Part shown: positions 4-42,712 of the stretch, piece after piece | How the letters are laid out: each line of letters begins with the position of its first letter | How positions within the stretch are numbered: the stretch's first letter is position 1 | NCBI GenBank assembly: GCA_030272155.1 | Contig: CP126206.1 | Span: 3,771,001 to 3,835,000 of the forward strand | From: Tetradesmus obliquus | Taxonomy: Eukaryota; Chlorophyta; Chlorophyceae; Sphaeropleales; Scenedesmaceae | Direction: 5' to 3' | DNA: 64,000 nt | Made by a program: the position numbers and the translations under genes | The notes under the pieces: generated by a model | Seen by the model: the letters and a program-made list of their open reading frames with translations, nothing else | The model's database searches: none | Told to the model about the DNA's origin: nothing

Positions 4-795
4 GCACACATGATGGGGCCGTGTGTAACCCCAAACCCTGGATGTACTGCTGGCACATAACGCGGCACATAACTTGTGAACTGGGTGACGCCTGCCAGCC
101 AGGCCAGATCAACAGCCCAGGGCCCACTGCCTCGCCAGATATGCAAATTTGTGATGCCAGAAGACGCTCATGACACTAGCAGCTGTGCAGATGCAGCCAA
201 ATTCAAACTGCAACAGCCTGCAGCAGCACGAGCAGCATCATCTGCCTGTATGCAGCCCTAGCTGCTGATTCTTCATGCCCCGCCAGGGCAGCAGGCCCAA
301 GCCGGTCAGCCATGGCATCCCGCATCGCCTGTATGCCGAGCCACTTGTAAACAGCTGGTTTGCGTTGTGCTGTTTCGTGCTGCACCGCAGCACATTGCGG
401 CTGACTACAGCGCACATGATGGGGCTGTGTGCAACCCCAAACCCTGGATGTACTGCACATAACGCGGCGCTGAACTTGTGAGCTGGGTGACACCTGCCAG
501 CCAGGCCAGATCAACAGTCCCGAACCAATGCCTCACCAGAAATGCAAAATTTGTGATGCTAGATGGCATTCATGACACTAGCAGCTGTACAGATGCAGCC
601 AGATTCAAACTGCAACAGCCTGCAGCACCAGCATCACCTATTCCTATGCAGCCCTAGCTGCTGATTCTTCATGCCCCGCCAGGGCAGCAGGCCCAAGCCG
701 GTCAGCCATGGCATCCTGCATCGACTTTATGCAGAACCTTTATCGTTGCGAGATGCCATCGCTCGACTGGCACCCGAAACAGGCCTTACGGAGGG
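4..795. repeat. Tandem duplication of the TERT 5' region (unit about 400 bp)
   Basis: The segment starting near position 4 (cacatgatggggc, then ccaaaccctggatgtact) is repeated starting near 409. The stretch encoding MPRQGSRPKPVSHGI occurs at 275 and again at 671, 396 bp apart. Small indels separate the two units. The second unit runs into the full TERT first exon; the first diverges after the codons for LYAEPL. Both carry the same upstream leader sequence, so promoter or 5'-UTR elements may also be duplicated. I recognise no TATA box or other promoter motif in either unit. Confidence 0.85.
275..346 (+). pseudogene. Truncated duplicate of TERT exon 1
   Basis: This copy encodes the same first 24 residues as the TERT start at 671 (one Leu/Pro difference) and then diverges into an unrelated frame ending at 481. 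It lacks the remainder of the TEN-domain exon (LRDAIARLAPE onward). It is best read as a broken 5'-end copy produced by the 400-bp tandem duplication. It could still act as an alternative upstream start or a decoy 5'-UTR ATG if transcription begins further upstream. Confidence 0.7.
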
Positions 796-2399: not shown

Positions 2400-2501
2400 A
2401 GCTTGCACGTGACAAGGCCAGCCTGCCTGTGCTGCAGCCGCCAGTGGCTGACTGGCTGCTCAGCCCCTACACGCAGCAGCAGCAGCAAGGGCAAGGGCAA
2501 G

Positions 2502-2571
<70 letters not shown>

Positions 2572-2732
2572 GGGGCAGGGGCAGCAGCAGCAGCAGCAGG
2601 GGCGGGGTCAATGCGTGCCGCAGCCAGCTGGCGTGGGTGCTGCTGGGACAAGTGCCGCTGCAGAAGCGGCTAGCAGCGCTCAGCAGCAGGCAGCAGCAAC
2701 TGCAGCAGCAGGCGCGACAGGTGGCAGCAGCA

Positions 2733-2763
<31 letters not shown>

Positions 2764-2827
2764 CAAGAAGAAGGGCTGCCGACCGCCTCCCTGGCTCAGG
2801 AAAAAGCTGAAGCTGCAACAGCTGGCT

Positions 2828-2867
<40 letters not shown>

Positions 2868-3383
2868 CTGGGTTGCTGCTGCCGGCAGGGGAGCATCCTC
2901 AGTCTCAGTCTGAACAGCTGCTGCCAGGGTCCCAGCAGCAGCAGCAGCAGGAGCAGCAGCAGCAGCAGCAGGCGGGGGAGTATGTGCTGCTGCATGACAT
3001 GGACAGCTGCGACGAGCCAGCCACACAGGTGGGCCGGCAGACACACAAAGCCACAGCCTTTGCTCAACATATGTGTTGCAAAGTGTTGCATAGTGCTCTG
3101 TGGGCGGGCAAACAGGCAGAGCCACAGCCCTGGCATAAAGCTTTTGTGTTCAAGTCATGCAGCATGCAGCGTAGGGCCCTGGCTGCGCTAGTCCTCGGCC
3201 ATGGTTGACTTGCTGTTCGGTTGGCTGCTGCTGCCAACTTCAGAAGTTTTCACGGTCCCTAGGCCTGGCACTGCCACTGCAGTGATCTACTACAGTGACA
3301 ACAGGTCTGCTAAATCCATGTTGATTCTGTTGCTTTCAGGTGCTGGGCAGCCCTATGGCACTGTGGGACTTCTCAGAGCACAG

Positions 3384-3414
<31 letters not shown>

Positions 3415-3486
3415 GATGATTTGCTGCTGTCGCAGTCGCAGCAGCCCACAGACACAGGGCAGCAGCAGCAGCAAAGAGCAGGAAGC

Positions 3487-3524
<38 letters not shown>

Positions 3525-4874
3525 GCCACCAAGCCAGAGCTTGGCATTGCCAGCAGCAGCTGCCGATGCCACCCGGCCAGCTGCTGCTGCGGCTGCTGCG
3601 CCTGCACATGCACCGGCTATCACAGCAGCTGCCCCAGCTACAACAGCAGCAACAGCAGGAACATCTGCAGCCGCTGCTGCTGCCGCAGCTCCGCGCGCTG
3701 GCGCTGCTGCTGCTGCTGGGCCTTCTGTGGCGGCTGTTGGCGGCTGGCTGCTGCCGCGTGGCGGCATTTTCCACTGTGCCACCTTCAGCAGGAAGGCTGG
3801 GCTGCCCGCGTCACGTGAGTGTGCCTGCTGGCTATTAAAAGTGTGGGGGTTTATGGCAGTGGTGATTGTGTGGTTGGCAGAAGGTTGTTTGACTGAGCCA
3901 CCTTCAGCAGGAAGGCAGGCCTGCCCGCATCACAAAAGCGCATGTGCTGGTTTGAATGTGTTTGTTTAGGAAAACGGCTGGCTGCTGCCACGTGGCGGCA
4001 TTCTCCACTGCGCCACATTCAGCAGGAAAGCTGGCTGCCAGCGTCGCGTGCGTGCATTTGGTTTCCATGGCAGTATATATGCGTACTGTGCTGTGTAGTG
4101 TTTCACTGCTTCACCTTCAGCAGGTGGGCGGTCATAGTGCAACCTCAACGCAAGCAACACATTCACATAATCAAGCAGGATAGTGATGCAAGGAAACATC
4201 TGTGGTTGCAAAGACATGTCAATGCATGGCCCCGCGTGTGTGCCTGCAGACATCCTGCGGCAGCTGCAGGGCATGCCGCTGCCAGCAGCAGCACCACACT
4301 AGCATGCTGATGTACGTGTTGTTGTGGCCGCGTTTGTAGTGCATCACAACTCCAGCAACTCACTGTCGTGTTATACATACAGAAGGAGACATTACATGTG
4401 GATTTATCCACATATGTATGTATATACATACAAGCAGGAAAGCTACTAATTAGGCAAGAACGTGTTTTTTTGCTGCGTGTGTGCCCGCAGACATCCTGCG
4501 GCAGCTGCAGGGCACGCCGCTGCCAGCAGCAGCACGCATGCTGCGGCAACTGCAGGGCGAGTCATTTCCTCTTTTTGACGTCTGCAATAACACAATGCAA
4601 ATGTGGTTGTAACTTGCAGACATCCTGAGGCAGTTGCAGATCAAGTCACTTCCTGTTTCTGACGTCTGCAATAACACAATGCAAATGTGGTTGTAACTTG
4701 CAGACATTTTGCGGCAGCTGCAGATCAAGTCATTTCCTGTTTCTGACGTCTGCAGTAACACAATGCAAATGTGGTTGTAACTTGCAGACATCCTGAGGCA
4801 GCTGCAAGGCACGCCGCTGCCAGCAGCAGCACGCATGCTCTACGCAGACATCTTCCTGCACCCCAGGCAGCAGT

Positions 4875-4908
<34 letters not shown>

Positions 4909-6608
4909 TCCCACTGCTGCTGCTGCTGCTGCTGCTGCTGGATCTGGATCAAAATCTAGAGTTGCAACGGCTGCTGCTGCTGCTGCCAGGACAAATGCTG
5001 TCAGGGGCAGGGGTGCTGCTGGGCTAGCACCTGCCCAGAGGTACCTGGGGCAGGGCCAGCAGCAGCAGCAGCAGCAGCAGCCGAGGTGGCGGCAGCGGCA
5101 GCAGCAGCAGCAGCGCGCGGCGCTCAGTGGCGGCGGCGGCGGTGGTGTGCCGCTGCTGCCGGTGGCTGCTGCTGCTGTGCGGCCTGGCCATAGGGTGTTG
5201 CTGGGGCTGCTGCGGCGCATGATAGGTGCGGGGTTCGGCTTTTTGTTCTGTTCACGTGTTGAACATGCTAGATATTTTTATGCCTGTGCTTTGTGCAAGG
5301 GTTGTACCGTCTGCAGAACGTCTGGCATGCTTGCTGCAATGTATGCAGCACCTCTGCCACAGCACGCCTCCACCACACAGCTCACCAAGGCGCTGCTGCT
5401 GCTGTCTGGGGCTGCTGCGGCGCATGATACGTGCGGGGGTCACTGAAAGTACTTGCACTTTCCCTTCAACCGTTACTGAAACTTCGCTGCTTTATGCATT
5501 TTGCTGCGCTTATTTGAACTTGTAAGTACAGGCTGTACTGGCTGCACAGCTTGTAGTGTGCTTACAAGGATGGATGCAGCACCTCTGCCACAGCACGCCT
5601 CCATAGCTTACAAAGGTGCTGCTGCTGCTGCCTGCTGTTGCTGCTGCTGCTGCCTGCTGTTGCTGCTGCTGCTGCTGTTACTGCTGCTGCTGCTGCCTGC
5701 AGTGCGTGCCTCCCACTGCCCCTACACCCTTCTGCTCAACCACCACTGCCCCTTGCCACCCACAGCAGTAGCAGCAGCAGCAGCAGTGCTGCCTGGAGCC
5801 TCTCAGGGCCCTCGGCAGGGCAGGCGGCAGGCAGCAGCGGTGCCTAGCAGCAGCAGCAGGCGCAAGCGGCTACGGACTGCAGCAGCAACACAGGGCGTGA
5901 GGCAAGCACAGCAGCAGCAGCAGCAGCAGTTGGGTGCAGGCAGATTGCTGCCTCAAGCAGGTCACAGAATGCAGCAGCAGTCAGTGCAGCAGCAACAGCA
6001 GCAGCAGCAGCAGTTGCCGCTGCTTGCATTTGGCAGCCCACCGGGCGCCAGCCTGTCAAGCATTATGTGCGGCCAGGGTTCAGGGTTTAACAAGCCTGCC
6101 AGCCAGTGTGGCCAGGGTTCAGGGTTCAACAGGCCTGCCAGCCAGGGTTCAGGGCCCAGCCCAGGAAAGCAGGGTTCAGCACCCAGCCCCGCAAAGAAAG
6201 GCTCCGGGGCCTCAGCAGCAGCAGCAGCAGCAGCAGCAGGTTCTGGTCAGGGTTTAGGGCTGGCAGCAGCAGCAGGTGGCAGCGGCAGCAGCAGACCCAC
6301 ATCCCCAATGCTGTTGGATGCTGCTGCTGGGCAGGCTAAGCAACTGCAGCAGCAGCAGCAGAAGCAGCAGAAGCAGCAGAAGCAGCAGCAGCAGAAGCAG
6401 CAGCAGCAGAAGCAGGGTGTGGTAACCCCACAAGAGAATAGCCCTGCTGCTGCTGCTGCTGCTGCAGCAGCAGCAGCGGCCGGGCCTGTAGCAATGGACG
6501 TTGACGTGCCTGCTGCTGCCACTGCTGCACCACCACCGCCAGCAGCAGCAGCAGCAGCCACCCCTGCTGCAGCTGCCCTACCTGACGGCCATCTGTCTTC
6601 TCAAACGC

Positions 6609-6660
<52 letters not shown>

Positions 6661-8854
6661 TCCAGCCCCGCCATCCTCCCAGCTGGGCCTGCCTGCCCAG
6701 GTGGTGCCCCACAGCCAGGTGGAGTGCTTTGTGTGGGGTGTGGTGCGGCGCGTGGTGCCACCTGCACTGCTGGGCAGCAAACGTGATCAGCAGGTGAATT
6801 GGGGTGTGAAAAGGGCTGTGCATTTGGGTGTGAACATTAGTGTGAACTGGGACGTGAACTGGTGCATGAAAGGGGGGTGCAGCGTGTGGTGCCACCTGCA
6901 CTGCTGGGAAGCAAGCGTGATCAGCAGGTGAACTGGGGTGTGAATAGGGGTATGAACTGAGGTGTGAACTGGGGCGTGAACTGGGTGTGAACTTGGAAGT
7001 GGAGCGCTTTGTGTGGAGCGTGGTGCAGCGCGTGGTGCCACCTGCACTACTAGGCAGCAAACGTGATCAGCAGGTGAGAGGATAGGCCTAGAAAAAGGGG
7101 TCATGCTCTTGCATAGACAGCTGGGGCAGCTCAGCCAAGTGAAGCATGTTGTAGAGTGGCTGCACTTTGTTAGCATGTAGGGAGTGCTTTGTGTGGGGTG
7201 TGGTGCGGCGCGTGGTGCTACCTGCACTGCTGGGCAGCAAGCGTGACCAGCAGGTGAACTTGTGCGTGGACTGGGGTGTGAATCCAGCTGCTCATCAGGC
7301 TGCGCCGCCATAAGAAGCCACGGCATGCAAGCTGCAACTGATACCAAGGACACCAGCAGCTGATGCTCTGCTTTTATGCCCACAGCCTTGTTTTTGCTGT
7401 GCGCAGGTGTGGCGGGGCGCCATTCGGCTGTCGTCAGGCTGAGCTGCCATGGGACCTTGCGCCTGCACATGGCAGCAGCCGCTCAGTGTAGGCTGACACC
7501 TTGTCACCACCGGCATCATGACACAACAGCAGGAGTCGCTCACCCAACTACTGCCAACAGCCGCTGTCTGGTTACATTGAATGTGCTGTTTGTTGCATGC
7601 TGTTTATAAATATGTTTATATGTTTATATGTTTTTGGTGCATCTCAGGTGTGGCGGGGCGCCATCCGGCTGCTCGTCAGGCTGCGCCGCCACAAAACCTC
7701 GCGCCTGGACAGGGCGGTAGCAGGGCTGGCCACTGGCTCCATGCCCCGATATTGAATTTGGGGTTGAGTTGTTGGAACGACTCATACCGCAAGTTCAGGA
7801 ATTGCAGCGGCTGATTTGGTGTGCCCTGCTGGTCTTCTCTCTGTTGTCTGCAGGTTTGGCGGGCAGCTATCCGGCTGCTGGTGCGTCTGCGCCGCCATGA
7901 GACCTTGCGCCTGGACAGAGCAGCAGCAGGCCTGGCCACTGGCTCCATGCCCTGGCTACACACTGCAACACCAGCAGCAGCAGCAGCAGCAGGCCATGTC
8001 CCAGCACCCCAGCAGCACCAGCAGCAGCAGCAGCAGCACCAGCACCAGCAGCAAGAAAGAAGGCGTGTGTCTGCCGGGCTGCATGTTGCCAAGCAGGCCT
8101 GGCTGCGCTGCTGGTGCTGGTGGCTGCTGGGGCGGCTGGTGCTGCCGCTGCTGCGAAACAGTTTTTACATCACGGAGAGCGAGCCGTACCGGCAGGAAGT
8201 GTTCTACTACAGGTGGGGTTTAGGGTTTGAAGAAATCCTTGTGGGCTTTAGAGTTCAGAGAGGAATCAAGGGCTTAGGCTTGCTTCTTTTCAGAGTTTCT
8301 AGGGGTTTTGCTGGCTGGGCATGGTGGCTGCTGGCGAGGCTGGTGCTGCTGCTGCTGCGCAATAGTTTTGACATCACGGAGAGCGAGCCATACCGACAAG
8401 AAGTGTTCTACTACAGGTGGGAAGTGGTCTGCGATTTATTGTATTTGCGTTCAAGGGTTGGCTTTGATATTCTGAAGCCCTTTGGAGTGGTTTCTGTCAT
8501 GATTGGTCAAACTTGGTCAAATTCACTCACAATTCCCATTTTCATTCGTACTTTTGCTGCCGCGCAGGAAGCCTGTGTGGCACCAACTGTCCCTGTTAGG
8601 CCTACACGAACTAACAGCAACATGTTTCACAGCAATCACTCAAGAAGAAGCAGCAGGCTTGCTGTGCAGGCGGTCTTTGGGGGTGGCTCGGCTGCGGCTG
8701 CTGCCGAAGCGTGCCGGGCTGCGGCCAATTGCCCAGCTCAGCAGCAGCAGCGTGGTGCGATTCAGGCTGACACAGCAGCAGCAGCAGCAGCAGGGTGGGG
8801 CAGTGAGGCTTGGCAGTGGCACAGCAGCCCGGCAGCAGCAGCAGGGTAGAGGAG

Positions 8855-8906
<52 letters not shown>

Positions 8907-8996
8907 CAGTGGTGGCGGGAGGATGGCAGCAGGTGGAGCTGCAGCTGGCAGCAGCAGCAGCAGGGGTAGGGGTGGGGGTGTGCGTCTTGGCACCAC

Positions 8997-9038
<42 letters not shown>

Positions 9039-10260
9039 CAGGGGTGTGCGGCTGTCAGGCAGCAAGCGGCGCCGCAGAGCTGGGCGCGTGTCTGCTGCTG
9101 ATGCTGCTGGCGGTGCTGCTGGTGTTGGTGGAGTGAGGCGCCAAGGGGCAGGCAGTGCGGCTGCTGCTGCTGGTGGTGGTGGTGGCCGCAGCGGCTCGCT
9201 GCTGCTGCCATTCAAGCCTGTTAACACTGTGCTGCAGCCGGCTTTCCAGGTGAGGCTTGGTATTTGCGTTATTGGGCTGGTTGCTAGCTCTGCTACTGCT
9301 GCTGCTGTTGCTGCGGCTGCGGCTGTGGCTGCGGCTGGTGGTGAGGCTGCTTAACCCAACATGCGTGCGTTTCATACTGATCTCCCATCCAGAGAGAATG
9401 CAGATAATGTGTGCTACCGCTGCTGCTGCGGCTGCTGCCGCAGGCGTTGCGTTGTGAGGTGCTGGCGCGGCCAGGCTTACTAGGCAGCAGCGTGTTTGGG
9501 CTGGATGACGCGGCACGGCTGCTGCACCCCTTCCTGCGGCGGTTTAGGGCGGCGCAGGCGGCCGACCCGGGCCTTGTACCCTACATCATCAGCGCTGACG
9601 TGCGCAAGGCCTTTGATTCAGGTGTGTGTGGTTATCCTGTCGAAATCAGGTTTGAGGATGCTGCTTGCGTGCAGTGTGGTACGGCTTGAGGCTGCAGGTC
9701 TGGGCCATACAGCACAAGGCTTTTGAATCGGGTGCACGCATCCTGTGGATATCACTTGCATGCAGTGTAGTGCAAGTTGGAGCTGCTGAACCTGCATCAT
9801 CAGCGCTGGCCATACACCCTGCATCAGAAGTGCATCTCATCATTACGCGTGCTTCACTACCAGTATTGATCGGCTCCATCCTCATGTTCATGCACCTGCA
9901 ATATGTGCACCTGTCCCTCTGCTGTTGTCTTGCTGCAGTCTCGATCCCCCGCCTGCTCAACCTGGTGCAGCCTCTCATCAGCAGCCCCTGCTACAGCCTG
10001 CTGCGCTACGCCACAGTCTCCCCCATGCTGGGCGCAGTGCGGGCGCGCTACAATGCAACAGCTTCTTCCACCAGCAAAGTTGCTAAATCCACTCATTTTG
10101 CGCTGCTGCTGCTGCTGCTGCTGCTGCTGCCTCTCTTCCGCGACAGTGTCAATCCCCCGCCTGCTGAACCTGGTACAACCTCTCATCTCCAGCCCCTGCT
10201 ACAGCCTGCTGCGCTACACCACAGTCTCACCAATGCTTAACCTTTACATGCACTCTTCCC

Positions 10261-10312
<52 letters not shown>

Positions 10313-10565
10313 CCTGCAGTGTCCATCCCTTGCCTGCTGGGCCTGGTACAGCCTCTCATAAGCAGCCCCTGCTACAGCCTGCTGCGCTATGCGGCAGTGT
10401 CTCCGATGCTAACAATGCCGCTGCTGTTGCTGCTGCTGCTGCTGCTGCAGTGTCCATCCCCCGCCTCCTAAACCTGGTGCAGCCCCTGATTTCTAGCCCC
10501 TGCTACAGCCTGCTGCCTTATGCTACTGTCTCACCGATGCTAATCCTTGACATGCACCCTTCCCC

Positions 10566-10601
<36 letters not shown>

Positions 10602-11789
10602 CCTGCAGTGTCCATCCCCCGCCTGCTAAACCTGGTTCAACCTCTCATCAGCAGTCCGTGTTACAGCCTGCTGCGCTACGCCACAGTCTCACCAATGCTG
10701 GGTGCAGTGCGGGCGCGCTACTGCACAGCAGCAGTACCTGGGGAGCTGCCAGGGGCTGCTGGTGCTGCTGCTGCTGCTGCTGCTGGTGGTGGTGGTGCTG
10801 CTGCTGCTGGTGCTGGAGGGTTTCTGGGCTGGGTGAGGGGCGGCTGCAGGGGCAGCGCCAACACAGTGTTCACTGACCAGGTGAGCCAGCAGGACAGGTT
10901 GTGTGAGGCCAGTGTCCCCCTGGGGATGTTTCATGTAAAAATTAGGCTGTGGGGCAGCTTGTGTTCACATCTCTGTGTATAATGCTTGTTGCTTGCTTTG
11001 TTGTGATGCCTGTGGCTGCTGCTGGTTGAGTATCCGGGCTGGGTAAGGGGCGGCTGCAGGGGCAGCGCCAACACAGTTTTTGCCGACCAGGTGAGAGATA
11101 TAAAAGCATTCAACTGTATGGCTCCTGGGTTTTGAAAAACCAAAGGTAGATGCATAACTACGCACCTTCAAGCATGAAGAGGTACTGTCAGCAGTGCTGG
11201 GTCTATATTGTGGTGCAGGGCTGTTGGCGGCTGCAGGGGCAGCGTGCGGTCTCACCGAACAGGGGAGGGGTACTGGCATGGAAGCAGTAAAATAAAATGT
11301 GTGTATGTTTGTGCGCCGGGGCAACAAAGCTAGCAATCGAGGCCGATCCACGCCCAACTCATCAAGACAACAATAGCAGGGTAAGTAGCGTCATCAGGTT
11401 AAATCACCAACCACAACCACCGAAGACAAGCAGCACGCAGATCTAAACCAGCCGAAAGTGATCTGCGACTTTTGAACGCTGCGTCAGCATGCACCGACAC
11501 TGCCACCCAAGCTGCTGGTGACATGGCTGGGCCAGGCACACTGTGTCCTCATGTTGGGCGGGATGACCGACGAACGCGCCTGCAAATCAAACATCACTTG
11601 ACAAGGCAGAGGTGAATACAAAATGCACAGTGCTCCTGCAAAAAGAGACACAACTTGTTGGCAAACAAAACAAACACCGTTTGCAAACAAAACACATCCA
11701 ATCACATACGTTGGCAGATGCATGTGTGTTGCTTTGGTGGTGGTGTCAGCGCAGCTGGTGATTGTTGGCTAAAGCGCCTTGCTGTCATT

Positions 11790-11837
<48 letters not shown>

Positions 11838-12475: not shown

Positions 12476-12517
<42 letters not shown>

Positions 12518-12852: not shown

Positions 12853-12898
<46 letters not shown>

Positions 12899-13106
12899 TG
12901 GAGAGGCGGAACTCCAGCAGCAGCAGCAGGGTGTTATGGTTGCGGCAGCAGCAGCAACAGGTGTTGCTAGGGGGTTGGGAGGTCTTGCAGGGGCAGTGCT
13001 TCAGCCTGCTGCTGCTGCTGCTGGCGGTGGTGCTGCTGTGAGCAGCAGTGCTTGTGGCATTAGTGAACTGGCAGCTCTGGCAGCAGCAAGCGCTGACATG
13101 ACAGGC

Positions 13107-13146
<40 letters not shown>

Positions 13147-31875: not shown

Positions 31876-31917
<42 letters not shown>

Positions 31918-34743
31918 AGCATGACGCGGCCGTACACGGCCACGGAGCGCGACAACGCCAAGCTGTTCAAGCCGGCGTCCACCTTCCCGCTCAACGGCGA
32001 GTTTGTGTTCTCCAACTCCAGCACCTGGCCGGGCCGGCAGGCGGTGCAGAGCACCATACACATCGCCAACGCAGACTGGCAGGTGAGGGAGCGGCACTGG
32101 CGCACTGATGCGCTGGCATGTTGGTCGGTACCAGGTTGAACTATCTTGATGACACCAGGCTCGCTAGTACTGTAGCGTCTGCTGTAGCCTGTACCATCCA
32201 CATCGCCAACGCAGACTGGCAGGTGAGGCCGGTGCAGCTGCCAAATTTGATGATTGACCGCAGTTGCCAAGTTATGGCAAAATGGTATTCTTGATGGTTT
32301 TGACCGCAGCTGCCAAGTGCACCATTCACATCGCCAACGCACACTGGCAGGTGAGGCCGGTGCAGCTTTGAGACGTATCAGATCACATTGACTGCGGTTG
32401 CCGGGCTTCACGTTGCACATGGACTGGCAGGCGAGCCAGATGTGCAACTGTGAGGCGTATCAATTTGACTGTAGTTGCCAGCCTTTACGTCGCACACTGA
32501 CTGGCAGGTGATCAATGCAGTGATGGCACTGGCGCACTGCGCACTGGCACGTTGGGCGCTGCCAGACCCTGACTGATTGACCGCCAGGTGTTCCTGGAGC
32601 CTGCAGGCGGCTGGCGGCCTGCCTGGGAGCGCAGGCTGGGCGCATACATGCGGTGCTGCCTGACTGCTGCTGCCGCTGCTGCCAGGTGTTCCTGGAGCCT
32701 GCGGCAGGCTGGCGGCCCGCCTGGGAGAAGGCCTAGACACATACATAGCCGTCGGCAGTTGCAACATCATTGTTATTGGTCTGGATTGCAGGTGTTTTTG
32801 GAGCCTGCAGCGGGATGGCGGCCTGCCTGGGAGCACAGGCTGGGCGCGACGCTGGTGCTGCCTGACTGCTGCTGTTGCTGCTGCTGCCTGATTGCTGCCC
32901 TTGCTGCTGCCGCTGCTGCTTGCCAGGTGTTCCTGGAGCCTGCTGCGGGACGGCGGCCCGCCTGGGAGAAGGGCCTAGACACATACATAGCCGTCGCCAG
33001 TTGCAACATCAGGGTGACTCTGAGTGTTACTCTCTGATATGCAGGTGTTCCTGGAGCCTGCTGCCGGCTGGCGGCCCGCGTGGGAGAAAGGCCTGGCCGC
33101 GACTGCCGTGCTGGATGCGGGCATCACTGTTATGGGTCTGAAATGCCAACTCTTTTCCAACTTGTGCGCCCCCGTTTGCAGGTGTTCCTGGAGCCTGCGG
33201 CGGGCTGGCGGCCCGCCTGGGAGAAGGGCCTGGCTGCGACTGCCGTGCTGGGTGCGGGCATCATCGGCGTGCTGGTGGGCACCATTCTTGCCTCCTGGGC
33301 GCAGCAGCAGAAGCTGCTGGGAGAGGTCATGGTGAGTAAGGGCTTTATCTGTTGGTTCTGTTTACTTTACATGCATTGCTACAGCCCTGGGCCGCTTTTG
33401 CTGGGGAGGCTGCTGACGGGGCGATCAGTGGTGCTTTTGTGCTGGAGATTGACTATGCGTCGACTATGCGTTGACGGCTGGCAGTGTGAAACTGTTGTTG
33501 TGCTGGGTGCGGGCATTATTGGGGTGCTGGTGGGGACGATCCTGGCGAGCTGGGCGCAGCAGCAGAAGCTGCTGGGAGAGGTCATGGTGAGGCGGCTGTC
33601 AGGGCTGTTTCAAGTTATAGGGGTTGCTACAGCTTTGGAGCTGTTGTGCTGGGGAGGCTGGCTGCTGGTGGGGCGATCAGTGGTGAGATCATGCTGTGGG
33701 TTCGCTGTGGGTTGACTCCGGGCTTGCTGGCAGTTTGAATTGGTCGGGGTGCTGGGTGCTGGCATCATCGGGGTGCTGGTGGGGACTATTTGGGGCAGCT
33801 GGGCGCAGCAGCAGAAGCTGCTGGGAGAGGTCATGGTGAGCGCTTTGGCAGGTTTTGATGCGCCATGCTTAATTCAGCGGGAGCTGCTACAAGAGTTTGT
33901 GGCTGGGCAGGCCTGATGATGGGGCGAAAAGTTCCTCGATGTGTCTGATGTGAGCTGCCACGCGCTGCCGCATTTGACTGAACGTTGCGTTGCAGGAGCG
34001 CATTGCGCGGCTGGCTGAACAAACTCCGGCAGGAGAGGCTGCGGCTGGGTGCGATGCTGTGCTGCTGCTGCAACCTGCAACCCAACCATGTGCTGTTATG
34101 CGCAGCTGTACCTGCTTGCAATGCGCGGCTGGCTGCCACTACGGCCAAGCTGCAGGAGGGGAAGCTGCGGCTGGTTGGACTGCTGCAAGCTGACCATTGC
34201 TTTGCATATGTCACCGCACTCTCCTCCTTTGCCTGCAATCACATGAGCACAATGAACAGCTAGCAGAGGCCACCGCCAAGGGGCAAGAAGAAAAGATGCG
34301 GCTGGACTCGCTGCTGGTGCAAGCTGACCACTCAACTGTACGTGTCACCTTGTTGCAACTAAAACAATTTCTTGCAGGAGCGCAACGCGCAGCTGGCAGA
34401 GACCACCGCCAAGCTGCAAGAAGAGAAGATGCGGCTGGACGCGCTGCTGGTGCGGCAGTACAACCTGGTGGCGGTGCTGGGGCGGGCGGCAGGCAAGGAT
34501 GGAGGCAAAGACAGGGACGTGAACGGAGGCAGCGGCACTGGCGGGGGCAGCCCTGACAACAGCACCAGCGCCTCGCGGGAGGGGCTTACACTAGGTGGGT
34601 GGCTGGGAAGAAGGCTTGGGAGGGAGAAACATGCTGTGTTGCTGTTGCGCGGGGGAGGGGGGTGATGTTGCTGGGGGTGGGGCACGGCAGTGCAACGTGG
34701 TTGCTGTGCAACACGCTGAGCAGGGCCGGCTCTAACGCACAAC

Positions 34744-34776
<33 letters not shown>

Positions 34777-35833
34777 CACACCGCACCATGCAGACCGTAT
34801 CGAGGCGATGCGCCGCCAGCTGGCTGTGAACACCAACACTGCCCTCCAAGACATCGGCAGCATCCAGCAGCTGGAGCTGCTGGGGAAGGGCACCTTTGGC
34901 AAGGTCTACAAGGGGCTGTGGCGGGGCACCGTGGTGGCGGTGAGGCGCGCTGGCTGTTTGTGTGTGTGTGTCGGTTGCTGTCGCTGTCACACACACACGC
35001 ACACGATCATGCACATATGCATATACACACGATTGTGGGCACCCGCGCTGTTGCTCTTGGAACATGTTGCGTGTAAGCTTTGTTCTCTGAGTGTGGCGGC
35101 TGCGTTGTGCTGGAGCTGCCCTTTAGCAAGGTCTAGAAAGGGCTGTTGTGTCATGTGCTGCCCTGCTGCTGCTGCTGCTGCTGCCGCTGCAGGTGAAGAC
35201 GATGCTGCTGCCTTCCAACATGAGCGGCTCGGAGAAGAGAGAGAAGATGTGAGGCGCAGCAGCGGCAGCAGCAGCAGCAGCGGCAGCAGCAGCAGCAGCA
35301 GCAGCAGCACTGTGCTCACAGTCCTTATGTGGTGTGGCTGGTGTGCGACTGCTGACTCAGCCTTGATACTCGTTGGCGTCCAGCAGCTGCGGCTTTTGCC
35401 GCGGCGCGCTCCTCTGGCAGCTGATGTTGCAACTGCATACAGCTGCACAACACGTGCGCAAAGCCAGGAGTTCCTGGCGTGTTGCGCTGCATCACAAAGA
35501 TGGCTGAAGTGTGTGCACTGCCCCTGCTGCCCCTGCCCCTGCTGCTGCTGCTGCTGCTGCTCCCCCCACCAGGGCTGTGATGGAGGCTGCCATCAGCTCC
35601 TCGCTGTCACACCCCAACGTGGTGCAGGTGGGGCGGCTGCATTATAACACGTTATGTTAGTTATGCGGAAATCAGGGGCTGGCAATTCAACTGTCTGCGT
35701 GCACACGGCCAGCTGTCCAACACCTGTACCATTGTGCCCTTTGCAGTCTTCGGTTGCTGCAGTCGCATTACTGTACAGCTGGTTACAGCGGTTTACCGCT
35801 ATTGCTGGCGCACCTCTGACTGTGCCGATTTTG

Positions 35834-35895
<62 letters not shown>

Positions 35896-38800
35896 ACGTA
35901 CACGTACGCCATCCGTGCCATCAGGGAGCTGCCTGAGGAGGGCACGGGCTCGCCACGCAGCGGGTGAGACACGGCAGCAGCAGATCTAGCTAGCAGGCTC
36001 TCATCAACAGCAGCATCAGACAAAAAATGGCAGCATGGCAGCAGTTGTGAGCTGCCTAAAAATACTCGCCACGCAGCGGGTGAGGCGATACAGCAGCAGC
36101 ATTAGCAGCAGCAGCTAGCCTATGCGGCAACGGTACCCCTGCATGCAGCCAGGTGCCGCTACTGCCCCCCCATGCCCACTCTTTCAGCCGACATGCATCT
36201 TGCCCTGATACCAGAAGACATCAGCCGCTGGCCCTGCCTCAATGCTGCAGCCACCTTTGACTGCTGCTGCCGCTGCTGCTGCTGCGTCCTGGCCGCCCCT
36301 CTTGCCCGCCTTCTCCCTTTCTCCCCTCCCCCGCAGCGAGCCGTCAGCCGCGCCCACCACCTCCCCCAGCGCCAGTGAGAGTGCACGGCTGGAGTCGCTG
36401 CGGCTGAGCTCAACCAGCGTGCCCGCACTGCACAGCTACGAGGTGGGCGAATTTTGCATCAAATGTATGTCAGTCAGTTCCAAAAGCATGTGTGACGGCA
36501 TGCAACGGTGGAACCTGCACAGCTGCAAAGCAACTGTGTGCCACCAGTAGAGCTGGGCAGCACGTGCAGCTGGCGGCGGCGGTGTGTATAACTAGTGCGG
36601 CTCTGGCTGGCTGGCTGGCTGGCTGAGGCTAGCTGGCTGTGGTGTGTTGTGTCATGCCAGCTGGAGTCGCTGAGGCTCAGCTCAACCAGCGTGCCAGCAC
36701 TGCACAGCTACGAGGTGCGTGGTGCTTGGATTTGTGCATTGAGCGCAACCGTCAGTCGTAGAAGCATTCATAACTTGCACAGCTAGCAGGTGAGGGTGTG
36801 GCGCCAGTAGAGGTGGGGCAGCACGGGCAGCTGGCAGCGGAAATGTGTGTGGTGTCAGGCTGGCGGGCTGCGACTGGCTGCCTGTGGTGTTGTATCATGG
36901 TGGCTGGAGTCGCTGAGGCTTAGCTCCACCAGCGTGCCTGTTTTGCACAGCTACAAGGTGGGCAGGAGGCGCGCTGTGTCGCCTACTCTATACATCAAGT
37001 AGCTGCAGCCCGTCCAGAAACAGCTGTGCTGTGCGGTCTGCGCGTGCCACACTCGGCGTGTATGAGCAGTGCGGCGCGCACATATTGCTCTGCCGATGTG
37101 ACACGTCTTGCTGCTCCTGCTGCTGCTGATGCCGCCGCCCCTTTGTTTTCAAACTTCAGGTGCGCCTGGTGCTGGAGTTTTGTGACAAGGGCTGCCTGCG
37201 TGAGGCGCTGGACGCGGGAGCCTTCCTGCTGGCAGGTGCGGCGCTGTGTGTTATAATGTGTGGTAATGTGTACATATGTTATTGACAGGGGATGCGATGT
37301 GGTGTTGAGGGCGGCTGGACGCGGGCGCCTTCCTGCTGGCAGGTGCGGCGGCTTTTTGTACTCGGGGCTGGAAGTGGGGCAAGGTGCTGTGCTGGTGTGT
37401 ATGCATGTGTGTGTGCAACAACTGCAAGCATTAAAACATCCTGAGCTGTAGTTGCATGAGGATGTAGTGCTTTTGTGATGCAGCTTCAGGACATTTTCAT
37501 TTTGCAGGAGATTGGCAGCGCACTGTCTCATCACTGCTGCTGCTGCTGCAACTTGCGCAGGGGATTAGCAGCACACTGTCTCATCACTGCTGCTGCCGCT
37601 GCTGCTGCAAGTTGAGCCCGCACACTGCCTCATCACTGCTGCTGCTGCTGCTGCTGCTGCTGCAACATGTGCAGGTGGTGGCGTGAACTACGCGGCCATC
37701 CTGGACACTGCTGCTGACGTGGCCAAGGCCATGCTGCACCTGCACTCCCTCAATGTGCTGCACTCAGACCTGTGAGTTGGGTTTGGTGCACGACCAGCAG
37801 GCATAAGGATATTGCAGAAAGGTACAGGGGCGCACAGGAGGTACCGCGAAACATCACATGCACATGCACAGCCTCAACAGCTGCACTGAGACCTGTCAGC
37901 TGGCCGGGGCACAGGGGGGTAACATAGGGGTACAGCGCAGAGGGGAACAGGGGTGAGGTTGCAATAGCCTGCAAGCGCTGACCCTCATTCTGCTAGCCAG
38001 CGTCCTGTTAGCCTGCAGCACATATCGTCCTGATAGCCTGCAGCACATATCGTCCTGATAGCCTGCAGCACATATCGTCAGGGTGGTGTGCTGTGGTGAA
38101 GGTCAGCAGTGCATTCACTGGCAGCTGCCGTGCCGGTTGGCTTGGAAATGCAGCACATGCCAGCTAGCTCACAGCTGTGCCAGCAGCTCAACATATAGCC
38201 GCAGCCTCCCGCTCTGTGTAACACAGCCACAGGCTGTGGCCCACAGCTTACGAGTGTGCTGCTTGGCTGCCTGTACATGTGCCTGTGTGTGTCTTACCTG
38301 CTTGCAGCAAGGCGCAGAACGTGATGATGGCCTCGGGCAACTCTGACGGGCGGGGCGTGGTGGCCAAGGTGAGCGCCCGCTGCTGCTGCTGCTGCTGCTG
38401 CTGCTTGGCTTCTCATGCACATAGGGTGTACAGCTGCATCATGCTCTGCTGGTTGCCATCATTGCTGTTTTCGTGCATACCTGCTGCCGCCTCCTGGTGC
38501 TTTGCATAGCCAGTGCATATCCTGCTGCTGCTGTTGCTGCTGCTGCCGGCTTCTTGCTTGCCTCACCCATATTCTGCCGCCTCCGCTGCTGCTGCTGCGT
38601 CTCCCGCCAGGTGGGCGACTTTGGGCTGAGCCTGAAGATGGACCACACTGCCACACACATCAGCAGCGTGTACCAGGGCACGCTCACACACATGGCGCCA
38701 GGTGAGGCGCATGATTTTGATGAGCTGTACCTGTGTTAACTAATACATTGTGGCTTCATTGGTCATCAGCAGCAGCAGCGTGTATCGGGGCACGCGGACT

Positions 38801-39075
38801 CACATGGCGCCCAGTGCGGCAGGCTGCGCGGCAGCTGCTTGCAAAGGAAGACTAGCTGTGATCATTGCGCTCGAGTTGAGCAGGCTTGTAGCAGTTCACA
38901 AGCACAAGCACGGTGATGTTGCCTGGTGTATTTGTGGGGCACTGGCCACGCCGATGAGCTGTCGCGGCAGCTCACAGCTGAGATTATCTCACGCGTGAGG
39001 CAGCTCACAATGTAACCACAGCATGTGCTGCTGAGCATGCACAGCACATTGCGTGCCTGCGGTCACAACATCACG

Positions 39076-39108
<33 letters not shown>

Positions 39109-42100
39109 GTGCAGAGGTGATGCTGTCGGGGCGCGTGTCCAAGGCCGCAGACGTGTACGGTGGGCAGACCTATTCCCTAGCGCCTGCCATGCTTGCTTGC
39201 TTCATGCGGTACGCGCTCCAGCTGCCAGCTACTGCCAGCCCACTCTTGCTGCCTGTCACATTGTCTGCATTGGCAACTCTCTGCATGCTGCCCCGCAACC
39301 CTCTTGCTCACCTTGAACCCTCTGCATCCTCTCAACTCCGTGCCGCTGTCAATTAGTCACTACATTGCAGCCTTTGGCATCACGCTGTGGGAGCTGCATG
39401 TGGGCGGCCGCGCCAAAGTAACCCTGCTGTCTCCCTCCATTGCTCGCTGTTTCTGTATTTGCATCCTGCATCCTGCAGCGTTCGGCATCACGCTGTGGGA
39501 GCTGTACATGGCCCGCCACGCCTTCAGGGGCATCATTCGTATTCAACGTCACAGGCTCTCGCCGCCTTTACCCTCAACCCCTGCTGTGGTTCTAACCCAC
39601 CAGGTTGCATACCCTCTTGCTTCTTGTAGCTTCAGGACTTACCAAAAGTATCAGTACACAAGGTGCAGAGGTTCACGCCACATAACCTCTTAACCCCTGC
39701 TGTTTCGCTTGCTGCTTCCCTGGCATCCTGCAGCGTTCGGCATCACGCTGTGGGAGCTGTACACGGGCAGGCGTGCTTTTGCAGGCGTGCCGCGGGCCCT
39801 GCTGGGCCACCAGGTCACGCGGGAGGCGCTGCGGCCCAAGTTCCCCCCGGGCACGCCCCTGCAGTACAAAACCCTGGCGGAGCGCTGCTGGCACACCGAC
39901 TGGGAGAAGCGGTGAGGGGGTTGTCTGCTGCTGGTGGCACGTGGACAGGGGCTGGGGGTTTGGGGGTGTGGTGGCTGTAGCTGGCACATAAAGGTGAGGC
40001 GGTGCAGTCATGGGGTGTTCGGGGGGGGGGTGGATGGGGGCGCTGCTGGGCCACCAGGTCACAACAGGGGCGCTGCGCTGCGGCCCGAGGTCCTGCCTGG
40101 CACGCCTCGGCAGTAGCGGGCCCTCTCCGAGCGCTGCTGGCAGGCCGACTGGGAGAAGGGGTGAGGGGGTCGCCTGCTGCTAGGGGTGGGCTGGTGCTGG
40201 TGGCAAGCAAATGGATGTGGAGCAGCTGCTGGGGGGTTTGGGGTAGAGGATGGGTGGTGGCTGCAGCTGGCACACAGACAGACGCTAAAAGACTGAGAGG
40301 AGTGGTGAGGGCGCCGGGGTGGTGGTGGGCACAGCAGTATGCATTGACGCTGCCTGCACCGTTTCAGGGGTGACCACTGAACAATTTGTCAAGTGCACAT
40401 CGTCCCTTCCTGCCTTTCTCACCGCAGGCTGGAGTACAGCGGCGTGCTGTCGGAGCTGCTGGCGATGCGCGTCTACTCTGATCGGATTGCATATGTTTTG
40501 ACCCTGAGAAGGATCTTGTGGCACGTTCTCCTGCCTGACTGCAGCCCGGAGTTCAGCGGCGTGCTCAGCGAGCTGTTGGCGATGCAACAGCGGCCCCTTC
40601 CACCTCTCCCGTCTTACCTCACTCCCATGTGCTGAACGTATGCTGTCTCTCTGTTGCCTGCCGCTGCAGGCCGGAATTCAGCGACGTGCTCAGCGAGCTG
40701 CTGGCAATGCAACGTCCACCTGTCCCCCCTTATCCGTTTTCCATGGAACTAAACGTTGGTTGTCTCTCTTTTTTCTCCTGCCGCTGCAGGCCGGAGTTCA
40801 GCGGCGTGCTCAGTGAGCTGCTGGCGACCCACCCCTCCCCTGTTGGTATTCCAGCATGACCTTGCCGCTTCCCACTATGCTGTCCCAATTCTCAACAATA
40901 TTCACGTGTTCTGTCCCGCTGCAGGCCGGAGTTCAGCGGCGTGCTGAGTGAGCTGCTGGCGATGCAGTTTCCCCCTGTTTTATTTCTTGAAAGCAAACTC
41001 TTGTCGCTTGCCCCGCATCTTATTTCTTTTGCTGCAGGCCAGAGTTCAGCGGCGTGCTGAGTGAGCTGCTGGCGATGCAATGGCCACCTGTCCCCCCTTA
41101 CCCCTATTCCTTGAAACTAAAGTATGCTGTCTATCTGTCTCCTCATTGCAGGCTGGAGTTCAGTGGCGTGCTCAGCGAGCTGTTGGCGATGCAACATCCA
41201 CCTGTCCCCCCTTATCCCTGAGCCATGTAATGCACATATGTTGCCTCTCTGTTACCCGTCCCGCTGCAGGCCTGAGTTCAGTGGCGTGCTGAGCGAGCTG
41301 CTGGCGATGCATTCTTCCCCCTGGTTAAAAATTTGGAAAGCAAACTCTGGTCGCTTGTCCCGCATCTTATTTCTTTTGCTGCAGGCCTGAGTTCAGCGGC
41401 GTGCTCAGCGAGCTGCTGGCGATGCAACGTCCGCCTGTCCCCCCTGATCCGTATTCCTTGGAACCAACTATGCTGTCTATCTGTCTCGTCTCATTGCAGG
41501 CCTGAGTTCAGCGGCGTGCTGACTGAGCTGTTGGCGATGCGTGCCGCCGACCCGCGCCGCACGCCCGCCATCAGCCTGCTCATGCGCCAGCAGCAGCACG
41601 AGCTGGACGACGAAAAGAACGATGCATTCCTGGCGGCAGCAGGTGCGGTTTTTGGGGGAAGCAGGCTCTGCTGATGATGTTATGGCTGTAGGGTGTGTGC
41701 TAGCATATTTTGCGGGCTGCCGGGGTAGCAGCAGCACGAGCTGGACGACGAAAAGAACGACGCATTCCTGGCGGCAGCAGGTGCGGGTTTTGGGGCAGCA
41801 GGCTCTGCTAATGAATTTATGGCTGTAGGGTGTGTGCTAGCGTCTGGTGCGGGCGGCTGGGGTAGCAGCAGCAGCACGAGCTGGACTACGAGAACAATCA
41901 CGCATTCCTGGCGGCAGCAGGTGAGAAAGGGGGCGGTGTGGCAAGTGTCTCATGCTGGTGTTCTGAAGGGGTGGCCGCGACCTTGACCTTGACCTTGTGA
42001 GGCAGCAGCAGCATGCGCAGGCAGCTGAGGACACAGCCAGGAGCGGTGGCAGCAGCTGTGAGGGCTGGCCTGAGGGTTCTGGTTGTGCTTAGGCCGCCAG

Positions 42101-42712
42101 CTGCTCACAAAGCTTCACTGTGTGCGGCCATGCCCCAGGCACTGATGTGATGCAGCTCAGCAACATGCACCGCAGAAGCACTGCAAAGCACAGCCCTGGC
42201 ACGGCAGCCAGTCATGTTCCTCTGCATGTGTCTGTATCGCACTGGGCCACTGACGCACGCCGTCTCCTGCCGCCTCCACGCGCCCCGCAGGCCGCAACAG
42301 CAACAGCAACCGCTCGCCGCTGCTGGGCGTGGGCCTGCCGGCTGCTGCTGCCGCTGCTGCTGCTGCTGCTGCCGCTGGGCTGGAGCGGCCCGGCTCTGTG
42401 TACCTGGAGCACTCGCTAGAAGACAGTGAGCTGCTGGTGATGAGGACAATGAGCGATTGGAGCCATGAAGGGCAGCAGCACGATGATGCGCACGGCTCTG
42501 CCGGCGGCAGCAGCAGCAGTATCTTAGAGCAGCAGCAGCAGCAGCAGCCGGGGGGCTCGTACCACCGCAGCCGGTCGACGAAGATGCCTCAGATTGATGA
42601 GGTGGAGGGGGAGGCAGGCAGTGAGGGGGAAGGAGAGGGAGAAGGAGAGGGAAGGGGGCAGCAGCAGCAGGGTGAGGCGCAGCAGCGGCAGCAGAGTGTG
42701 CCGCCTGCTTGA
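26100..42712 (+). CDS. CHASE-domain receptor-like protein kinase (TM-CHASE-TM-coiled coil-TKL-like kinase), 24-exon model
   Basis: Predicted membrane sensor that couples an extracellular CHASE ligand-binding domain to a cytosolic Ser/Thr kinase. Exons: 26100-26201, 26477-26638, 27352-27440, 27760-27805, 28377-28412, 28705-28788, 29654-29813, 30913-31063, 31920-32082, 33182-33331, 34378-34594, 34794-34939, 35193-35248, 35573-35627, 35896-35963, 36337-36442, 37160-37235, 37675-37771, 38308-38368, 38611-38701, 39115-39159, 39734-39911, 41500-41642, 42291-42712. All phases match and total 967 codons plus stop. TM1 is near residues 45-68. The CHASE part has VSPMGVIELIYPLNAATENG, GLGLDIFA, ARIPIFIANAS and FWGFATAISPMDDL. 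TM2 (AVLGAGIIGVLVGTILASWA) is near 350-370, then a coiled coil (RNAQLAETTAKLQEEKMRLDALL). Kinase: GKGTFGKVYKG from 484, VAVK (K504), HSDLKAQN (D654), DFG (678-680), MAPE, WELYTGRRAF. HSD replaces HRD. The C-terminal tail is Gln/Glu-rich. The start codon is the least certain part. Confidence 0.88.
26719..26940 (+). repeat. Echoes of CHASE-kinase exon 2, 3' edge
   Basis: The exon end gagcgtggccatggactgg|gtgagc (to 26638) recurs at about 26722-26740 and 26836-26850 with donors intact, and decayed at 26918-26938. These are short copies, 20-25 bp of exon each. Confidence 0.75.
28930..28976 (+). repeat. Echo of CHASE-kinase exon 6, 3' part
   Basis: A copy of the exon 6 end, encoding ATTENGLSLDIFAQ, is followed by CAG|gtgggg; the exon itself ends at 28788 with ATENGLGLDIFAQ. 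Confidence 0.8.
29124..29653 (+). repeat. Four echoes of CHASE-kinase exon 7, 5' part
   Basis: Copies of the exon start, CCCGCGCTGCGTGGCGGTGCG.., occur at about 29124, 29264, 29388 and 29545, before the exon proper at 29654. All lie behind ctg-rich acceptors (ttcacag, ctgcag, catag). Several continue through the codons for LEAHDIVLNGP. Spacing is about 110-160 bp, with long (CTG)n between copies (for example 29461-29520). Confidence 0.85.
29875..30530 (+). repeat. Four echoes of CHASE-kinase exon 7, 3' part
   Basis: The exon end encoding AVARIPIFIANASLSEDFGS, then NKT and the ACAC|gtgagtg donor (to 29813), recurs at about 29875-29943, 30050-30122, 30250-30320 and 30455-30528. Copies are roughly 75 bp, spaced 180-205 bp, and separated by a conserved downstream intron block (gtgtagtgtgcaca..). 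Poly-G runs at 30192-30198 and about 30332-30350 may be slippage sites. Confidence 0.87.
30540..30912 (+). repeat. Echoes of CHASE-kinase exon 8, 5' edge
   Basis: Copies of the start of exon 8 (TGCCCACCAACTGCAGTGC) occur at about 30671, 30769 and 30841, with a more diverged one near 30540. All precede the exon at 30913 and have gcag acceptors. Each covers about 45-50 bp, encoding PTNCSAPLCF. Confidence 0.83.
31076..31580 (+). repeat. Echoes of CHASE-kinase exon 8, 3' part and a gttgactgagg micro-repeat
   Basis: The exon end, encoding AGNDSRLDLFKQSNYRWA and followed by gtgagttgac, recurs at about 31165-31220, 31327-31421 and 31520-31580. The donor-adjacent intron sequence gggttgactga is itself tandemly repeated at 31075-31140 and after each echo. 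Confidence 0.83.
32190..32440 (+). repeat. Echoes of CHASE-kinase exon 9, 3' edge
   Basis: The exon end encoding TIHIANADWQ with CAG|gtgagg (to 32082) recurs at about 32193-32222 and 32322-32350, with decayed copies near 32412-32430 and 32490-32510. The intervening intron sequence (ctgcagttgccaag..) is repeated along with it. Confidence 0.82.
32588..33181 (+). repeat. Five echoes of CHASE-kinase exon 10, 5' part
   Basis: Copies of the exon start, GTGTTCCTGGAGCCTGC.. (VFLEPAAGWRPAWE), begin at about 32588, 32687, 32792, 32927 and 33045, before the exon proper at 33182. The last two read through EKGL before diverging. Spacing is 99-137 bp. Confidence 0.88.
33500..33836 (+). repeat. Two echoes of CHASE-kinase exon 10, 3' part (second TM segment)
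   Basis: About 85 bp encoding VLGAGIIGVLVGTILASWAQ and QQKLLGEVM with a donor recurs at 33502-33585 and 33752-33835. The TM-coding sequence is well kept. Each echo is followed by a further copy of the downstream intron (tgctggggaggctgctg..ggggcgatcagtggtg). Confidence 0.86.
33995..34377 (+). repeat. Three echoes of CHASE-kinase exon 11, 5' part (coiled coil)
   Basis: Partial copies of the exon start, gagcgcaacgcgcagctggc(a/t)gag, occur at about 33997, 34118 and 34243, before the exon at 34378. They encode diverged coiled-coil fragments such as NEQLAEATAKGQEEKMRLDS and are increasingly frameshifted upstream. Confidence 0.8.
36661..36957 (+). repeat. Two echoes of CHASE-kinase exon 16; the first is a complete in-frame cassette
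   Basis: At 36661-36714, 54 bp encoding LESLRLSSTSVPALHSYE lies between an acceptor (catgccag) and a donor (gtgcgt) and is phase-compatible with exon 16's phase-0 end. Inclusion would duplicate 18 residues. A second copy at about 36904-36957 lacks an acceptor. Confidence 0.78.
37310..37350 (+). repeat. Echo of CHASE-kinase exon 17, 3' edge
   Basis: This short copy (ctggacgcgggcgccttcctgctggcag|gtgcgg) repeats the end of exon 17 (to 37235). Further 3', at 37508-37674, the catcactgctgctg tract with (a)cactgtctc is tandemly repeated three times. Confidence 0.75.
39366..39733 (+). repeat. Echoes of CHASE-kinase exon 22, 5' part
   Basis: Copies encoding AFGITLWEL(H/Y) start at about 39369 and 39479, before the exon at 39734. 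All are preceded by cctgcag or ttgcag. The surrounding intron sequence (ctctcgccgccttaccctcaacccctgctgt) is duplicated as well. Confidence 0.86.
40010..40170 (+). repeat. Echo of CHASE-kinase exon 22, 3' part
   Basis: A diverged copy of the exon end (gctgggccaccaggtcac.., gagcgctgctggca..gactgggagaag..g|gtgagg) lies about 240 bp after the original (ending 39911). Its frame is broken by small indels. Confidence 0.78.
40428..41540 (+). repeat. Ten-copy tandem array of the CHASE-kinase exon 23 5' edge
   Basis: Acceptor plus the first 38 bp or so of exon 23, encoding (P/L)E(F/Y)SGVLSELLAM, starts at 40428, 40545, 40670, 40790, 40925, 41038, 41152, 41270, 41385 and 41500. The spacing is 113-135 bp, mostly near 117. 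The unit is the exon edge plus about 78 bp of intron containing a pyrimidine-rich tract and gcag. Only the tenth copy reads on into the rest of the exon (RAADPRRTPAISLL). The kinase's last helix region is thus preceded by nine decoy acceptors. Confidence 0.93.
41725..41930 (+). repeat. Two echoes of CHASE-kinase exon 23, 3' part
   Basis: The exon end encoding QQHELDDEKNDAFLAAAG with CAG|gtgcgg (to 41642) recurs at about 41728-41782 and 41868-41921, the second with D-to-Y and K-to-N type changes. Spacing is about 140 bp. Confidence 0.85.

Follow-up and report, generated by a model that had tools for sequence, protein, structure and literature searches.

Tandem copies of exon edges in the introns of two Tetradesmus obliquus genes keep splice sites and coding-like divergence

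Arrays of short partial exon copies accompany the exons of two large genes of Tetradesmus obliquus, TERT and a CHASE-like protein kinase gene (KIN). They follow a direction rule, in that copies of a 5' exon edge lie upstream of the complete exon and copies of a 3' edge lie downstream; they retain the splice site of the copied edge and show constraint at the level of codons, and the same rule is found at two other loci of the genome. Judged from their pattern of substitution, the copies have probably either been coding sequence for most of their history or are selected at present.

Gene models in the window

The window analysed comprises 64,000 nucleotides (positions 3771001-3835000 of contig CP126206.1; genome assembly of 104,662,953 bases in 17 contigs). 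Three genes were modelled by hand, all on the forward strand, with every intron GT-AG and no internal stops: TERT (671-18769, 18 exons, 2701 aa), a triple adenylate kinase gene, AK (19978-24320, 9 exons, 669 aa), and KIN (26100-42712, 24 exons, 967 aa). Pfam scans of parts of the proteins (566 residues of TERT, 423 of AK and 793 of KIN) gave a Telomerase_RBD match in TERT (2.5e-20), with RVT_1 below threshold (16.9 bits, cut-off 29.6), an adenylate kinase domain in AK, and in KIN a protein kinase domain and a marginal CHASE domain (1.1e-4, 22.5 bits, cut-off 25). Protein searches, limited by protein length, returned algal TERT relatives and no T. obliquus protein for TERT (6 hits) and, among the candidates scored for KIN, a single close ortholog from T. 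obliquus alongside a 60% paralogue; fragments of T. obliquus TERT or KIN from other annotations were not among the hits. Against an independently recorded T. obliquus protein, P0001, the KIN model shows 16 substitutions and 15 gap columns in 954 aligned residues (97% match); P0001 agrees with the complete coding exons (hereafter masters), and the choice of the coding copy is therefore independently supported in KIN. TERT owes its 2701 residues to very long polyglutamine and polyalanine stretches in exons 4, 5, 7, 9 and 13 (2402-15210).

Distribution and direction of the copies

Self-comparison of positions 1-43700, with CAG/CTG-type runs masked and pairs less than 1.5 kb apart retained at E<=1e-3, yielded 152 direct and 0 inverted repeat pairs. 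With a partial exon copy scored when at least 20 exon columns aligned, 84 copies were found in TERT and KIN, where a sequence-only reading of the window had counted over 60; they lie on 15 of the 18 TERT exons and 13 of the 24 KIN exons, so that its phrase "most exons" suits TERT well and KIN less. The exon part of a copy measures 20-126 nt (median 52), and 81/84 fall within the 25-125 nt that had been proposed, while the adjacent intron said to accompany it is alignable to the master's flank past the splice site (z>3) in only 33/78 copies. Spacing is 71-396 nt (median 137), a wider range than the 85-200 nt first described, which covers 59/84.

The direction rule itself held without exception among junction-spanning copies of the two genes: acceptor copies lie upstream in 41/41 cases and donor copies downstream in 32/32. 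The dinucleotide AG or GT is retained in 70 of these 73, and in 75/78 of the set also used for flank and dispersion tests, confirming that copies keep their acceptor or donor. Self-alignment likewise shows that the copies do not lie regardless of exon edges: when the exon map was circularly shifted 300 times, AK included, rule-conforming copies averaged 37 and reached at most 68, against 78 observed. All four violations fall within domain repeats of AK. Edges with any repeat (41, shift mean 33, a count reached in 19/300 shifts) are less extreme in number because repeats span much of the sequence.

Among 45 repeat families, 41 span exon and non-exon bases (two being AK domain repeats), three are intron-only, one is exon-only and none is intergenic. 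Random placement would make 25-65% of edge plus intron-only families edge-spanning, as opposed to 39/41 seen in TERT and KIN, which disfavours chance as the source of the edge bias; detection bias accounts for some of this excess, since sequence derived from exons can be recognised for longer and copies confined to an intron are more easily missed at equal age. The tie to splice junctions is thus upheld in that 41/45 families touch exon edges, but not in its restriction to junctions, since the TERT start edge (copy at 275), the TERT stop edge (copy at 18851) and the KIN last exon (copy at 42756) are echoed too. Recurrent tandem duplication over exon-intron junctions is borne out by the exclusively direct repeats and by a seven-unit array with flank at L034, a locus 10-20 kb upstream of the window. 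A tandem duplication that spans an edge forces the direction of the copy, and the direction rule is therefore not by itself evidence of selection.

In TERT, the start edge of exon 1 has one copy upstream, with an ATG and 22 codons (3-738). Copies of 5' edges belong to exon 2 (one copy, 1272-1457), exon 4 (three, 2085-2433), exon 6 (four, 4234-4839), exon 8 (two, 7282-7952), exon 11 (four, with 44 synonymous and 5 nonsynonymous codon changes, 9933-10721), exon 12 (two, 11836-12299), exon 13 (three, 12404-12829), exon 15 (two, 15921-16209), exon 16 (one, 16360-16682), exon 17 (three, 17058-17486) and exon 18 (two, 18253-18682). Copies of 3' edges belong to exon 3 (one, 22 codons with 11 synonymous and 2 nonsynonymous changes, 1820-2054), exon 5 (two, 3741-4060), exon 7 (three, 6719-7283) and, with one copy each, exon 6 (5201-5441), exon 8 (8110-8421), exon 11 (10820-11095), exon 13 (15136-15446), exon 16 (16690-17009) and exon 17 (17691-18026); the stop edge has one copy downstream, stop codon included (18714-18906).

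In KIN, 5' edges are copied at exon 7 (three copies, 29029-29718), exon 8 (three, 30657-30958), exon 11 (two, 34118-34453), exon 22 (two, 39366-39779) and exon 23 (nine, 40413-41541), and exon 10 has five 5' and two 3' copies (32583-33840). The other 3' edges copied are those of exon 2 (two, 26617-26908), exon 6 (one, 28746-28981), exon 7 (four, 29722-30533), exon 8 (three, 30969-31609), exon 9 (two, 32048-32511), exon 16 (two, 36387-36963), exon 17 (one, 37207-37350), exon 20 (one, 38667-38820), exon 22 (one, decayed, with 12 nonsynonymous changes including a stop and 2 gaps, 39794-40170) and exon 23 (two, 41598-41923). The last exon has one copy past the stop (42589-42817), whose alignment ends 62 nt short of the stop, similarity by eye resuming up to the stop. 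The intron between KIN exons 5 and 6 has AGGTGAGCCC at both ends (28411-28420 and 28703-28712), as an intron that arose by tandem duplication might have. CTG runs (CTGCTGCTGCAG) directly precede several acceptors (2343-2401, 12744-12761, 27738-27759 and 31867-31919), so that microsatellite and splice acceptor coincide.

With the arrays removed, the median intron of 477 nt in TERT would shrink to 199 nt and that of 536 nt in KIN to 288 nt; AK introns measure 105-579 nt. AK has no echoes, its matches being only between its own paralogous domain exons, and its role as echo-free internal control stands, as one gene. The AK domain exons (20504-24183) share 93-95% identity for the most part and 75% in one stretch, with no intron alignment above threshold between the repeats; the exons may have been homogenised, or the introns may turn over fast. 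In one AK intron, units of about 44 bp (TCCTGCAAGC) form a degenerate tandem array (20821-21143), one of the three intron-only families.

Coding-like divergence of the copies

Masters and copies differ by 6.9, 5.8 and 22.0% at codon positions 1, 2 and 3, copies differ among themselves by 6.8, 6.5 and 23.8%, and alignable intron-derived parts diverge by 26.6%. Of the changes in the 1550 codons compared, 296 are synonymous, 166 are missense and 4 create stops; between master and copy, 228/906 four-fold sites (0.25) and 94/1549 second positions (0.06) differ. The pattern is repeated when copies are set against their family consensus (11 families with at least three copies each; 29/751, 22/735 and 86/694 at positions 1 to 3) and in 15 copy-copy HSPs with both exon and intron parts, which partly overlap so that columns recur (intron 244/954, 0.256; position 1 14/397, 0.035; position 2 21/386, 0.054; position 3 103/384, 0.268). 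In one such HSP of KIN exon 7, positions 1 and 2 show 0/137 differences and the intron 55/241.

A mutation bias is disfavoured as the cause. At two-fold third positions, masters and copies differ by 0.160 in transitions and 0.039 in transversions, and third positions of Met and Trp codons have changed in 1/75 cases; in alignable intron, transitions amount to 0.109 and transversions to 0.157. Transversions thus fall to the nonsynonymous level at two-fold sites and do not at four-fold sites, a contrast that, together with the Met and Trp codons, speaks for constraint on amino acids and against biased mutation.

Four-fold divergence is homogeneous across 78 copies (chi2 64.5, 77 df) and nonsynonymous change is overdispersed among them (chi2 111.6, 77 df). 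The splicing-free start and stop edges of TERT together lean synonymous (8 synonymous, 3 nonsynonymous changes); the KIN last-exon copy has 5 nonsynonymous and 0 synonymous. A stop or a one-base gap is present in 13/84 copies (not counting the genuine stop codon in the copy of the TERT stop edge), stops number 4 against 7.1 expected if all nonsynonymous changes were neutral, and missense changes are nearly random (BLOSUM -0.34 vs -0.59, P 0.054). Gaps in the 84 chosen copies comprise 14 of one base, one of four bases and none of three; three-base gaps do occur over all HSPs, a redundant set whose exon-like parts hold 68 gaps (48 one-base, 6 three-base), and their lack in the 84 copies therefore carries no argument.

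Gene conversion within a single lineage does not reproduce this divergence. In simulated single-lineage arrays of 2-8 units, with conversion as the only form of exchange and nonsynonymous change of the master lethal, the ratio of synonymous to nonsynonymous divergence (S/N) reached at most 1.46 between copies and 1.79 between master and copy, compared with about 4 in the data. The data therefore call for other coding lineages or for present-day selection. Two further candidates were rejected: a TERT paralogue as donor, as a 159-residue TERT query gave only weak hits (E >=0.03) outside the TERT gene, and complete mini-exons, as the inner ends, read by eye, have no consistent splice sites. The sequence-only reading is not supported in its proposal that the complete, outermost exon alone is preserved by selection, as the copies themselves show amino-acid constraint and kept splice sites.

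Origin and persistence of the copies

We favour, with confidence somewhat short of even, a reading in which masters and their copied edges recombine as one pool that extends over diverged alleles, the copies having been translated until recently and now decaying. Tandem duplications whose unit covers an acceptor, a donor, a start or a stop edge of an exon would keep arising, a continuing origin that we infer; the complete exon remains coding and surplus edges are parked in the intron. Parked and master edges would pair via the conserved exon part, introns being too diverged for pairing, so that exchanges would presumably start or end near exon edges, and units would be exchanged unequally or converted, both among themselves and from one diverged allele to another. 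Every parked edge would thus be one that was spliced and translated until recently, in this or another haplotype, and that would decay neutrally until replaced, before far decay; the price would be long introns and decoy splice sites.

Several features are signs that the copies may be dead now, namely the 13/84 damaged copies, the few stops, the near-random missense changes, the lack of a consistent second splice site (by eye) and the overdispersed nonsynonymous change; the first three suggest a long coding phase followed by a short dead one. Exon parts and flanks can also differ in age, in both directions: third positions diverge more than the flank in TERT (10145/10449, 14/30 vs 4/26, P 0.02) and in KIN (32680/32921, 13/37 vs 7/63, P 0.008), and the flank more than third positions at 40424/41034 (P 0.025), these being the 3 of 15 comparisons that are nominally discordant and 0 after correction for 15 tests. 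P0001 differs from the genome at 3/342 echo-covered KIN codons, and copies carry its residue in 11/12 readings, which fits exchange but is also expected if old copies keep the ancestral residue. The assembly of strain DOE0152z is 208 Mb, against about 109 Mb for UTEX 393, a difference whose cause the authors do not explain (PMC5552973, PMC5255914) and which is compatible with two strongly diverged haplotypes.

Against the recombining pool, it requires neutral allelic divergence near 0.2, while P0001 and KIN differ at only 16/954 residues and the strains may be closer than that; four-fold divergence is not overdispersed, as it could be if the alleles differed in depth; amino-acid change increases with distance from the junction, as predicted, but weakly (P 0.048); and the purely nonsynonymous KIN last-exon copy and a weaker constraint in the L034 array do not fit it.

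Alternatively, the copies may be used now, the master edge being replaced by a copy in some transcripts, or in some cells after DNA rearrangement, with weak direct selection on each copy's amino acids and splice site. This is a serious though doubtful possibility. It would account for the amino-acid constraint, the splice dinucleotides kept in nearly all copies, the homogeneous four-fold divergence, the deficit of stops, the equality of third-position and alignable-intron divergence between copies, as for old units selected in place, and the donor positions of the L034 array, with 0 differences in 105 pairwise comparisons. However, the inner ends of the copies lack a consistent second splice site (by eye), so that an ordinary mRNA would not link a copy with the rest of its exon; 13/84 copies are damaged, the TERT start and stop edges behave alike though splicing-free, and P0001 matches the master exons. 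Were direct use correct, which we think somewhat unlikely, the intron would be a bank of redundant exon edges really used, via alternative RNA joining or DNA exchange with the exon, and half-exons beyond the annotated coding parts would be selected directly as protein in many genes of the genome.

A past burst, in which most edges were duplicated at roughly the same time, stayed functional for long via some splicing state and lost function recently, would agree with the homogeneous four-fold divergence of the 78 copies and with the mixture of clean and decayed copies. It is improbable, as less diverged arrays exist (middle copies at L034: intron 0.108, third positions 0.116) and half-exons are functional in no known state. 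Slightly less probable still is neutral tandem duplication, with the copies debris from birth and selection only on the outermost complete exon. Direct repeats, the direction rule and an array with flank homology are what it predicts, and some copies, such as the KIN exon 22 3' copy and the last-exon copy, look neutral, but a neutral copy of a constrained exon would give an S/N of about 2 at most, copies are constrained when compared with each other, and the two-fold/four-fold contrast speaks against a rescue by several-fold faster mutation at third positions. Collapsed or concatenated haplotypes are very improbable as the source, repeats being hard to assemble but many of these units differing by 10-30%, numbering up to nine per edge, obeying the direction rule and recurring at other loci.

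Relation to known systems

Intron gain by tandem duplication starts from a unit inside an exon, whose two copies supply the donor and acceptor of the new intron. The copies described here share with it (PMC4974935, PMC2891723) a short tandem duplication that carries coding sequence and splice signals. They differ in that the unit spans an existing exon edge and enlarges an existing intron, up to nine times, with surplus edges left behind; the 39 TERT and KIN families lie at existing exon edges, and the introns exist apart from the copies. Tandem or mutually exclusive exons arise from copies that are each a complete exon with acceptor and donor. Direct exon copies in a neighbouring intron and amino-acid constraint are common to both, but here the copies are partial, with 20-126 nt of exon and one splice site, and neither AG nor GT recurs consistently at their inner ends (by eye). 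In concerted evolution, units of tandem repeats exchange sequence by gene conversion; units may exchange here as well, but they are half-exons in introns and the main signal is amino-acid constraint, not homogenisation. Minisatellite-like neutral duplication is matched by the head-to-tail direct units (in the window and at L034) but not by the copies' codon constraint, whose absence it would entail. Stwintrons, in which one intron is nested within a splice element of a second, have extra donors or acceptors within an intron (PMC8469720); additional splice sites inside introns are shared, but here they bring exon codons along.

Among the literature matches listed, none describes intron-parked exon-edge copies, and text searches of Sphaeropleales genome papers found no discussion of introns or exons. 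Intron sequence that keeps amino-acid identity and splice sites outside complete exons blurs the division between selected exons and neutral introns. The arrays would be a record of intron lengthening and of how exon-confined recombination might work in a diverged genome, and parked edges may mislead gene finders.

Other loci in the genome

Twenty stretches of 10 kb were chosen by place, of which one all-N and two satellite-rich stretches were set aside; the remaining 17 contain 188 direct and 11 inverted short-range pairs. In their local repeats, mismatches show a modest phase excess (917 vs 842, SD 12.7). A set of 22 loci, made up of these 17, three more chosen by place and two upstream of the window, gave 296 ungapped repeat blocks with at least 4 mismatches, of which 58 are synonymous-biased (a level reached by at most 1/40 shuffles), where about 5% (15) are expected; the blocks overlap and are therefore not independent. 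Half of the biased blocks (29/58) come from one locus, L028, whose repeats may be inherent to it, as they resemble a leucine-rich-repeat protein. The count falls to 29/213 when L028 is excluded and to 17/146 when L034 and L035 are excluded as well, so that the excess is present but modest; 11/22 loci have at least one biased block. Splice signals at block ends number 32/52 in sense and 27/52 in antisense.

Three families obey the direction rule (by eye), two at L034 and one at L033, a locus on another contig with one donor copy. The transporter-like gene at L034 has, besides an array of donor units, one acceptor copy (31 codons with 9 synonymous and 2 nonsynonymous changes, the latter both at the inner end). 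The array (3685-4740) consists of seven units of about 145 bp, each with exon part and flank and with GTGAG in 7/7; constraint is weaker among its middle copies (0/310, 19/310 and 36/310 at positions 1 to 3, intron 44/406).

Downstream of the genes, a short interstitial telomere-like repeat (AACCCTA type) lies at 43100-43131, about 24 kb downstream of TERT. Long arrays of 311/342-bp satellite with a lower G+C of about 0.50 occupy much of the last 20 kb of the window (43958-62393), with a CAG-rich array of 78-bp units between satellite blocks (57732-57974); two of the loci, L011 and L027, have a G+C like that of this satellite and many long-range repeats.
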